Shown here piece after piece: positions 15,326-19,726 of a stretch of 64,000 nucleotides of DNA. The translations under genes were made by a program, and so were the position numbers. The DNA lies in contig NZ_CP071446.1 in the NCBI RefSeq assembly GCF_017358165.1, positions 992,001 to 1,056,000 on the forward strand, written 5' to 3'. This DNA is from Thermosipho ferrireducens. Its GTDB lineage: Bacteria > Thermotogota > Thermotogae > Thermotogales > Fervidobacteriaceae. The notes beneath the pieces are model-generated. The model had not been told where the DNA came from, searched no databases, and was given only the letters and a program-made list of their open reading frames with translations. Position 1 is the stretch's first letter, and every line of letters starts with the position of its first letter.

Positions 15326-16321
15326 CTATATTGATATCATGTCAGTTACGCAAAAAGCTGTGATGCACTTTCCTTCTGATTCCGGGTATATATTATTTCC
15401 AGTTTTGAATTTAAGACTTACCGGACATTTTAAAATGGAAGTTAAGCTTTCTGATATCTGTGTTCTAAATTTACCGAGCATAAAACCTGAAATAATAACA
15501 CAATCTACATTTATTGGAAAAAAGCCTTTTTCTTTTACTAAGCGTAACACATCGAGTAACATCTTTTTACTGCTGAAGCCTTTTGGTGTAACAGATTTTG
15601 GGAATAATTCACCTATGTCTTTCTGTAAAGAAACGCCAACTATCGAATCTATTATGCTATGAATTATTACATCTGCGTCTGAGTGACCTTCGAGACCAAA
15701 ATCCGCAGGTATCTGAACACCACCTAAAAAGAGTTTTTTGTTTTTTGTTGTGGGATGTGTATCCCAGCCTATTCCACTAATTGTTCTATAGCGTGTTGTT
15801 CTAAACATTCTTGTCATAATTTTATTTGGTTTTCCACTTAAAATGAATCCTAAATTTTTGTATTTTTCTACTTCTTCTTCAAGTATGTCTGTTATGATTC
15901 TTGAGAACTCAAACTGTCTTATAAGTATGTATAATAATTCAGCTGTAATGTCAGGGGTTTTTCCTACAAGTGATATTATATATACATCATCTGTGCTAAA
16001 ATCTATAAGAATTTGACCAATAACTGATGCTAATTTTATACCAGTACCTAAAACTTTTAGACCAAGAATTCTGAACCACCTTTCGTATCGATGTCTAAAC
16101 GCTTCTTTAGTGGCGTAAAGGAGTATCCCCAGAACTTCTCCATCCTCGTTTTCCAGCACTATAGAGTTTTCTGATAAAAATGGCGGAATGTTTAAAGAAA
16201 GAGCTTTTTCTAAAACAAAACTTGCATTTTTGAAAAGATAATCATAATAATTTTTCTTTTCTTTATAAATTAGTTCTGCACACATTTTTATGTTGTTTTT
16301 GTTTATTTTTGTTATTCTCAT
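15326..16321 (-). CDS. ispF: Fusion: GNAT-like domain + IspF (MEcPP synthase)
   Basis: The C-terminal half (about residues 180-331) is 2-C-methyl-D-erythritol 2,4-cyclodiphosphate synthase, of the MEP isoprenoid pathway. The zinc ligands are present as GWDTHP (Asp, His) and GHSDADVIIH (His), with DIGELFP and INVDCVIIS following. The usual Thr-Thr-x-Glu loop near the C-terminus is replaced by KTGNNIYPESEG. The first 175 residues are not IspF; they have the beta/alpha layout and IVLENEDGEVLGILLY strand pair of an acetyltransferase (GNAT) fold, but this is tentative. Normal IspF is about 155 residues. dxs of the same pathway starts the same gene run. Confidence 0.85.
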   Translation of the reverse strand: MRITKINKNNIKMCAELIYKEKKNYYDYLFKNASFVLEKALSLNIPPFLSENSIVLENEDGEVLGILLYATKEAFRHRYERWFRILGLKVLGTGIKLASVIGQILIDFSTDDVYIISLVGKTPDITAELLYILIRQFEFSRIITDILEEEVEKYKNLGFILSGKPNKIMTRMFRTTRYRTISGIGWDTHPTTKNKKLFLGGVQIPADFGLEGHSDADVIIHSIIDSIVGVSLQKDIGELFPKSVTPKGFSSKKMLLDVLRLVKEKGFFPINVDCVIISGFMLGKFRTQISESLTSILKCPVSLKFKTGNNIYPESEGKCITAFCVTDMISI

Positions 16322-16340
16322 TTTTACACCTCGTTTGTAA

Positions 16341-17330
16341 CTAAAGAATTTTAAGTATGTATAATATTATAATCAGGAAACCAGCAAAAAACATAGTAGT
16401 CAGGAATGCTATAAGGAGTTCTGAACCGGTAAATACAGGGGAATGAGAAGGGCGTATAACTTTAATTTTTCCATGGGTTTTAATTTCTTCAACTCTTTTT
16501 GAGCTTTTTAGTAAAGTTTCATCATGTAGTAATTTTAGGCTTGGGCTTACGACAAACTTTCCGATTATATTTTCTCCAAGGTCGATTTTTATTAAAAAGA
16601 GATTTCCTTTTTTCGTTTTTATGATTTCTTTTCCTATGATCTTTCCAGGGAAAGGTTTGATTTTCGAACCTGAAAAATTGTTAGGATATACTTCCTTTAA
16701 TTTTTCTTCCGTTGAACTTATATCTACAGGTACGACATATAATATATCTTCTATATCAAACTTGGTTATGGAAACTCCGTTGATTGGATCAATTACCGGG
16801 AAAAATTCCGGAATGTTTTCTAAGTCTGGTCGTTTGTAAATTTTTGCTATCTCTTCATCCTCAAAGTCTCCTTTCATTTCTAAAACGGTTAGTGCGGAAT
16901 ATTCCTCCAGACTTATACCATCAAAAGCTATTTTCAACTCAGCTTTTGGAGACCAATCTTCTATGAGGTTGGAGATAATGAGTTCAAGAACACCTTCATC
17001 ATTTTCTTTTACTGCCGTTGTAAATTCTATGCCAAGTGCAAGTTTGCCACGTTTGTTCATCATGGTATTTAAAAATGTGTTGAAGGATAATGTAAGATCA
17101 GATACTACAGTTTCCTCTTCTAAAAGGTCTTTTTTTAGTTTTTCGAGTTTTTCTCGAAATTCGATGATATTTTCTTCCATAGTAAAAGAATCCAGATGTT
17201 CAGAGAACCTCATGGGAACTATTATAAAATCATATTCCGGAGCATTGTTTGCTTTTCCGAAGAAATATCCTATGAACTCTTCAGCAGTTGCTTTGCTTCT
17301 TCCCTTCACTTTCACAAAGTATAAATCCAC
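16341..17330 (-). CDS. Tail-anchored protein of unknown function
   Basis: The 329-residue product is mostly soluble and acidic, with a single hydrophobic helix at the extreme C-terminus (about residues 305-327), the layout of a tail-anchored membrane protein. A coiled-coil-like stretch lies near residues 55-75 (EFREKLEKLKKDLLEEE). I recognise no catalytic motif; it may correspond to a Thermotogota-restricted DUF family. The GTG start at 17330 is ten bases after AAGGAGG. It lies between glgC and the ispF fusion. Function unknown. Confidence 0.7.
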   Translation of the reverse strand: MDLYFVKVKGRSKATAEEFIGYFFGKANNAPEYDFIIVPMRFSEHLDSFTMEENIIEFREKLEKLKKDLLEEETVVSDLTLSFNTFLNTMMNKRGKLALGIEFTTAVKENDEGVLELIISNLIEDWSPKAELKIAFDGISLEEYSALTVLEMKGDFEDEEIAKIYKRPDLENIPEFFPVIDPINGVSITKFDIEDILYVVPVDISSTEEKLKEVYPNNFSGSKIKPFPGKIIGKEIIKTKKGNLFLIKIDLGENIIGKFVVSPSLKLLHDETLLKSSKRVEEIKTHGKIKVIRPSHSPVFTGSELLIAFLTTMFFAGFLIIILYILKIL

Positions 17331-17354: not shown

Positions 17355-18599
17355 TTAAAAGTATCCACCTGATGGTATCTTAGTATTATTGGTTATTGTT
17401 TTTTCTACACCAACCACACAATTTTTCCCTATGGTTACGTTTTGTTTTATAACACTATCCATTCCTATCACAGTAATTTCTGAATTATAAATTTTGTTGT
17501 CAAGTTTGCTTTTTGAGAAATCTCCGACACCTATTTTGACATTGTCTTCTATCACACAGTTTTCTGCGACTATGGTATTTTCAATGTAACAATTGTTTCC
17601 GATTTTTACCTTTGTCATTATTACAGAATTTTTTATTATGGTATTTTTTCCTACTTCCACTCCCTGAGAAAGAACAGAGTTTTCAACTTGTCCGTAAATT
17701 TCACAACCCTCACTTATTATTGAATTTCTAATGTAAGTATCGTTAGATATATATGCAGGGGGCATTTCTTCTGAGTGTGTATATATTCTCCAATTTTTAT
17801 CGTAAATATTAAAGGGTGGTATTGGTCTTGTTAATTCTAAATTGGCTTCCCAATAGGATTTTATAGTTCCTACGTCTTTCCAGTATCCTTCAAAAGGAAA
17901 GGCAAAAACTTTGTTGGTTTCTATAATTTTTGGAATTATATTTTTTCCAAAATCATGTGAACTTTCCGGATTTCTGGCATCCTCAATTAAAACCTGTTTG
18001 ATAAAATCCCACTGGAATACATAAATTCCAAGTGAAGCAAGTGTTGATTTTGGTTTTTCAGGTTTTTCTTGAAATTCTATTATTCTGTCTTCCAGATCCG
18101 TAACCATTATTCCAAATCTGCTGGCTTCATTTAAAGGTACTTCTATGCAAGCGACTGTTGCTACACCACCTTTAGATATATTAAAATCTATAAGTTCGTT
18201 ATAATCCATGGAATAAACATGATCACCAGAAAGCACCAGAATATATTCTGGATCGTATTCATCTACAAATTCTATATTTTGATAAACAGCATCTGCTGTA
18301 CCGTTGAACCACACTTTTTGTTTTTCAGTGAAAAAAGGCTGAAGGATCGTAACTCCACCGTCTTTACGGTCGAGATCCCATGGTTTTCCAATACCAATGT
18401 GTTTATTGAGAAGATGGGGTTTATATTGTGTTAGAACCCCAACTTTGTAGATACCTGAGTTGACACAGTTGCTTAGTGTGAAATCAATTAATCTATATTT
18501 ACCACCAAACTGCACGGCGGGTTTTGCTATTTTATCTGTTAAAACGCCCAGGCGTGTTCCCTGACCACCGGCAAGTATAAGTGCAACTATATTTCTCAT
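17355..18599 (-). CDS. glgC: Glucose-1-phosphate adenylyltransferase, GlgC subunit
   Basis: GlgC makes ADP-glucose from ATP and glucose-1-phosphate for glycogen synthesis. The nucleotide-binding loop [15 protein letters not shown], the [15 protein letters not shown] motif and the substrate-binding [10 protein letters not shown] lysine region are intact, indicating the catalytic subunit. The C-terminal third (about 290-414) is a left-handed beta helix of hexapeptide repeats such as [14 protein letters not shown]. At 414 residues it has normal length. The ATG follows TTTAGGAGTGAT. It lies 11 bases downstream of glgD. Confidence 0.96.
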
Positions 18600-18610
18600 T
18601 TAAATCACTC

Positions 18611-19726
18611 CTAAAGTACCATTCTTTTTTCCATAACTACAGGTTCAAAATCGCCTATGAGTTTTTGTTCTGATCTGATAATGCAGTTTTTATCTAAAAT
18701 TGCATTTCTAACTACTGCTCCTTCTTCAACAATTGAATCCTGCATTATTATTGAGTTTTCTATGCAAGCACCTGCTTTTACAACAACCCCTCGAAAAAGA
18801 ATTGAGTTTTCAACAGTTCCAGATACAATACAACCGTCTGCTATTATTGAATTTTTTATTTTGGAGGTAGAAGTGAATTTAGCCGGTGGATAATCTTTTA
18901 ATTTTGTGTATACTTTTCCATGTCTATAAAAAAGCTCCCTTCTAATTTCTTTATTCAGGAGTATTTCCATGTTTGTTTTAAAATATTCGTTTATTCCTTT
19001 TTTTATATTTCTCCAATAGCCGTTAAAATCATATGCAAAAACTCTAAGTTCTTTAAGTCTTGGTATTATGATATCAAGAAGCAGATCATTCCCACCTGCT
19101 GGAACAGAAGAATACAAGAGTTCCATTAAAAGATGTTTGTTTATAAAGTATACCCCCAGAAAAGCTCTGTTTGAAGGAGGGTTTTTAACTTTTTCACGAA
19201 TGTCAATTATTCGCATGTCCTTGTCAACTATTACACTTCCATAATCTGACATATTATAGCTTTCATCCAGATTTTTTGTCAGAAGCGTTACGTCGGCAGA
19301 TTTTTGAAAGTGGAACATATACAAATTGTTGTAGATCATTTTATAAATATGATCTCCTGATCCTATAAGAACGTAATCTTCTTCACTTCTTTTTAAAACT
19401 GACATATTTTGAAAAATGGCATCAGCAGTGCCTTTATACCAATATTCTCCAGTCAACCCCAGATACGGTTGAAGAATATATAACCCACCTTTTTTTCTGT
19501 CCAGGTTCCACTCTTTCCCCGAACCAAGATGATCCATAAGACTTCTTGGATTATACTGAGTTAGAACTCCTACTTTTATTATGTCAGAGTTAACCATATT
19601 GCTAAGAGTAAAATCAATTGCACGGTATTTCCCGGCAATAGGAACAGCAGCACTTGCTCTTTTATAAACGAGTTTTCCCAATCTTTCACTTTTACCACCG
19701 GCTAAAATCAGTCCGAGGACTTTCAA
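18611..19726 (-). CDS. glgD: Glucose-1-phosphate adenylyltransferase, GlgD subunit
   Basis: GlgD is the regulatory partner of GlgC in a heteromeric ADP-glucose pyrophosphorylase. The 371-residue protein keeps the fold (LILAGGKSERLGKL, AGKYRAIDF) but its P-loop and catalytic surroundings differ from GlgC, for example KRASAAVP instead of KPAVQF. A short hexapeptide-repeat beta helix forms the C-terminus (about 280-360). The TTG start at 19726 follows GGGGTGAT. The pairing with glgC supports a two-subunit enzyme. Confidence 0.93.
   Translation of the reverse strand: MKVLGLILAGGKSERLGKLVYKRASAAVPIAGKYRAIDFTLSNMVNSDIIKVGVLTQYNPRSLMDHLGSGKEWNLDRKKGGLYILQPYLGLTGEYWYKGTADAIFQNMSVLKRSEEDYVLIGSGDHIYKMIYNNLYMFHFQKSADVTLLTKNLDESYNMSDYGSVIVDKDMRIIDIREKVKNPPSNRAFLGVYFINKHLLMELLYSSVPAGGNDLLLDIIIPRLKELRVFAYDFNGYWRNIKKGINEYFKTNMEILLNKEIRRELFYRHGKVYTKLKDYPPAKFTSTSKIKNSIIADGCIVSGTVENSILFRGVVVKAGACIENSIIMQDSIVEEGAVVRNAILDKNCIIRSEQKLIGDFEPVVMEKRMVL

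Follow-up and report, generated by a model that had tools for sequence, protein, structure and literature searches.

IspF is a drug target and, through MEcDP, a flux and stress node of the MEP pathway; to our knowledge, its only well-known fusion partner is IspD. The question raised by this locus of Thermosipho ferrireducens is what the additional N-terminal domain of its IspF is, and whether it couples an acetyltransferase to the MEP pathway. The gene lies within the window, that is, the whole stretch of 64,000 nucleotides that was analysed. It is a complete open reading frame at 15326..16321 on the minus strand, exactly the coordinates given in an earlier note on this DNA, and it reads as a single uninterrupted frame of 331 amino acids from an ATG start at 16321. 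A ribosome-binding site, GAGGTG, can be read directly 5' of this ATG at 16327..16332 on the same strand. The note had also claimed an extra N-terminal domain of about 175 residues, which is confirmed: residues 1-177 lie outside the Pfam IspF match.

The fusion is not peculiar to one assembly. Each of the 20 genomes searched in the window's family, five genera by database labels, encodes it at full length and without stops; among the members that a DNA search brought up, those with names are Thermosipho, Fervidobacterium and a single Thermotogota MAG. Since the same stop-free frame is found in 20/20 assemblies, chance joining is ruled out, and an assembly or sequencing error that joined two genes is refuted, with practically no probability left to it. 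Conservation of the fusion in related genomes, which had been suggested as a check, thus holds throughout the family as searched. Outside this family, IspF is a stand-alone protein in the Thermotogota, also in families f2 and f3, which are sister families within its order; most of the frames there measure 155-190 codons, and only family f8, discussed below, departs from this. The longer IspF frames inspected outside the window's family (genomes G029 and G045) had no match to the N-domain, and a collection-wide search for this domain, made with narrow peptide patterns, returned six family members only. At one further locus (G089:C7:407989-408445), IspF is broken into three short frames, probably by assembly frameshifts.

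As for the surroundings of the gene, a DUF4899 gene (16341-17330, minus strand; E 1.8e-93) ends 19 bases upstream of the fusion gene on the same strand; it is present in Fervidobacterium-type loci, whereas three Thermosipho MAGs (L066-L068) lack it in the interval from the glgC-like gene to ispF. Two adjoining genes for GlgC-like nucleotidyltransferases lie further upstream at 17355-19726 (minus strand), the second of them diverged (GlgD-like), and these are kept beside ispF in the family. GlgC-like genes are found upstream in all six flanked loci, joined by deoC where the contig extends far enough, and ksgA/fmt lie downstream of the fusion in Thermosipho MAGs. The gene neighborhood of the fusion is, in sum, partly conserved.

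The sole Pfam match in the whole protein is YgbB/IspF (PF02542) at residues 183-326, with E 2.3e-36 and a score of 125.9 bits that passes the cut-off of 26.7. The IspF domain, which also matches IspF entries of the PDB, can be placed at residues 182-331 (15329..15778, minus strand). Over the same residues 183-326, the equivalog model TIGR00151 scores 102.2 bits, below its cut-off of 116.45, so that the name IspF rests on the Pfam match, on the metal ligands and on the fact that each genome of the window's family has one IspF, the fused protein. The complete zinc site that the earlier note had reported is indeed there. In the alignment to B. subtilis IspF (5iwx), D187, H189 and H221 correspond to the metal ligands Asp9, His11 and His43, and D235 and G237 are the CMP-ribose contacts, the B. 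subtilis residues being as named in PMC5821942; the metal site is encoded at 15755..15763 (D187-T188-H189) and 15659..15661 (H221), both on the minus strand. None of these residues varies across our alignment of seven proteins. Judged from its sequence, this part of the protein is a diverged but recognisable IspF.

One deviation was observed in the IspF half. At residues 304-309 (15395-15412, minus strand), KFKTGN replaces the usual phosphate-binding motif KATT(T)E, with Asn at the position of the Glu. Stand-alone IspF proteins from this order (L022-L030) have KFK[ST]xN at this place, as do the f8 genomes; the change is independent of the fusion.

What, then, is the domain in front of IspF (residues 1-177; 15791..16321, minus strand)? 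An AlphaFold2 model based on a seven-sequence alignment has pLDDT values mostly of 81-95 at residues 1-70 and 111-170, and of 51-65 at residues 71-110. The IspF half of the model is of low confidence, probably because the alignment is shallow; a single-sequence model of the N-domain alone (pLDDT 38) was meaningless and was disregarded. The order of elements in the predicted N-domain, β1-α1-α1′-α2-β2-β3-α-β4-α3-β5-α4-β6-β7, is the GNAT topology. In a Foldseek search of the PDB, GNATs rank first (4m85, 1u6m, 4bmh and 2qec, E 7e-6 to 1e-4), with E 6.8e-6 and a TM score by target of 0.67 for 4m85, and the top matches among viral models are likewise acetyltransferase domains. Pfam gave no match over its cut-offs, GNAT models included, in the N-terminal ~177 residues; scans of 14 N-domains returned chance matches only, apart from one sub-threshold Acetyltransf_7 (E 0.15), and a profile search of PDB sequences with the N-domain returned only a chance match (2f1l, E 0.23). 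The GNAT assignment is for this reason based on the fold search and on profile-profile comparison, in which hhalign matched the 20 fused domains to 25 stand-alone Thermotogota GNATs with E 1.2e-12 over 174 columns. When the fused-domain profile was searched across the phylum, the best non-fused match (E 8e-5) was a stand-alone GNAT of 193 residues in a relative, a protein that Pfam names Acetyltransf_7/_1. On the strength of the model and the profiles, the N-domain is homologous to GNATs and is predicted to have their fold. The GNAT-like layout claimed earlier is thereby borne out by element order, Foldseek matches and profile comparison, and a GNAT fold is the outcome of the structure prediction and fold search that had been proposed for it.

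A GNAT fold does not by itself make an acetyltransferase. In GNATs, the loop between β4 and α3 holds the pyrophosphate of CoA. The R/QxxGxG/A motif of the acetyl-CoA loop is found in 0/20 fused domains versus 25/25 stand-alone Thermotogota GNATs, a set gathered with a motif-bearing query, so that the 25/25 is partly by construction while the 0/20 is not. When the two sets are aligned together, the sequence from β4 to α3 is YISNIAVDxxxRGxGxGxxL in the stand-alone proteins and YIVSLAGE...LLY, about 10 residues shorter, in the fused ones; in the protein studied here, this shortened turn spans residues 116-126 (15944..15976, minus strand). The fused domains are also shorter at β5-α4 (NxxAxxLY in the stand-alones) and at the β6-β7 hairpin, and no residue is invariant in what used to be the cofactor elements (residues 120-124 and α4). 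The protein is not classed as a GNAT acetyltransferase, since the cofactor motif that defines such enzymes was looked for and is absent. The check for acetyl-CoA-binding residues that the earlier note recommended therefore came out negative, the pyrophosphate loop being absent in all 20 members, and the acetyltransferase activity that it implied for the MEP pathway is unsupported. The N-domain is probably non-catalytic, as the lost loop suggests.

Conservation in the N-domain peaks elsewhere, at residues 44-52 and 72-88 (7/17 invariant). The first peak includes a loop, I45-P46-P47-F48 (16178..16189, minus strand), that is near-invariant among the fused proteins, and the second includes the most conserved stretch of the domain, K72xxFR(H/R)xYxxW82 (16076..16108, minus strand). 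The conserved polar and aromatic residues are Y19, K22, D27, K72, R76, Y79 and W82; Y114 and D145, which are conserved in stand-alone GNATs too, are retained. Read on the GNAT template, conservation is relocated to the half opposite the cofactor side. In close pairs, dN/dS is 0.07-0.12 for the N-domain versus 0.03-0.15 for the IspF part, values which indicate that the N-domain is under purifying selection, and its mean pairwise identity (0.52 versus 0.63 for IspF) shows that it evolves faster. Distances in the two parts correlate at 0.92, and in a tree with stand-alone GNATs the fused domains form one clade, on a very long branch and with an arbitrary root. From the correlation and the single clade, the simplest history would be that the pseudo-GNAT was recruited once, in the ancestor of the window's family, and then descended vertically.

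The reading that we favor, with somewhat better than even confidence, is that this GNAT-derived domain without an acetyl-CoA site serves IspF as a module for regulation, ligand binding or docking, with no catalysis of its own. Its ancestor would have been a GNAT acetyltransferase whose acetyl-CoA site was lost on the way to this role. By analogy, IspF would trimerise and make MEcDP in the usual way, while the three appended pseudo-GNATs would bind a ligand or partner through the retained acceptor-side half (the IPPF loop and KxxFR(H/R)xYxxW), and this binding would tune, stabilise or localise IspF. Inhibition of the E. coli IspF-MEP complex by FDP has been reported, as has a build-up of MEcDP under oxidative stress (PMC13001223); as IspF is known to be modulated by FDP, a control domain is plausible.

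A more specific version, which we put forward only tentatively, is a pseudo-acetyltransferase sensor whose acceptor-side pocket is kept as an allosteric ligand site controlling IspF, with a possible independent recruitment in the distant family f8. Two genomes of that family, G049 (L032:1936-2790, minus strand) and G055 (L031:2131-2925, plus strand), encode IspF with N-terminal extensions of ~115-125 residues which, by eye, resemble loop-less GNAT cores. The best match of the G055 extension is weak, an ElaA-like GNAT (E 8.6e-4) in one genome of the 103 searched, and hhalign of the G049/G055 extension against the GNAT set reached only E 0.03. It may be that a different loop-less GNAT was joined to IspF in family f8, in a separate event.

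The main rival, rather doubtful in our judgment, is a passive role, in which the pseudo-GNAT would only stabilise or solubilise IspF in thermophiles, without ligand or signal. Such a role would leave similar traces in the sequences, and it agrees with the faster evolution of the N-domain and with the hosts, which are thermophiles; however, the sister families f2 and f3 do with a stand-alone IspF, and the seven conserved polar and aromatic residues exceed the needs of a core. Unlikely, in comparison, is an active acetyltransferase that binds acetyl-CoA in an unusual manner and acetylates IspF, other MEP enzymes or a metabolite. The predicted fold and the retained Y114 and D145 would suit it, but the cofactor loop is gone from every fused domain, the α4 region is shortened and unconserved, and the domain stays under every Pfam GNAT threshold. 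That the N-domain is a decayed IspD, and the protein a bifunctional IspDF, has next to no probability and is refuted by the GNAT fold found by Foldseek and by the separate ispD gene of 60/61 relatives (the exception is a 60%-complete genome), for although IspDF fusions are common (PMC13001223), Pfam has no IspD match in the N-domain and the match to PRK09382, the IspDF model of NCBIfam, begins only at residue 175. IspE, IspG and IspH are all present in the window's genome.

Compared with stand-alone IspF (2-C-methyl-D-erythritol 2,4-cyclodiphosphate synthase), the fused protein has the same catalytic domain, Asp-His-His site and CMP-ribose Asp/Gly, and differs by its ~177-residue N-terminal domain and the TIGR00151 shortfall. 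The bifunctional IspD-IspF proteins of Campylobacter (1w55) and Helicobacter (8xhu) likewise bear an extra N-terminal domain, but there it is the cytidylyltransferase IspD, whereas the Thermosipho protein has a GNAT fold and IspD is separate. Stand-alone Thermotogota GNATs (~195-205 aa; e.g., L074, L078 and L088) are homologous over the whole N-domain and keep the acetyl-CoA loop that the fused domain lost. In human O-GlcNAcase, a C-terminal GNAT/HAT-fold domain, termed pseudo histone acetyltransferase by its depositors (PDB 3zj0), is likewise fused to an unrelated enzyme; that fusion is unrelated to the one described here, and the likeness is structural only.

The recognised fusion of IspF is IspDF (PMC10663253, PMC13001223). 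In literature on IspF together with GNAT or Thermosipho, within a coverage that left out most subscription journals, the present fusion was not found, and IspF with a pseudo-GNAT domain is apparently unreported. In annotation, the protein should be labelled neither IspDF nor acetyltransferase. The fusion offers a clean bacterial case of a pseudo-GNAT, testable with one purified protein, and the presence of an inactivated acetyltransferase on IspF throughout the family hints at a way of controlling IspF that has so far gone unrecognised.
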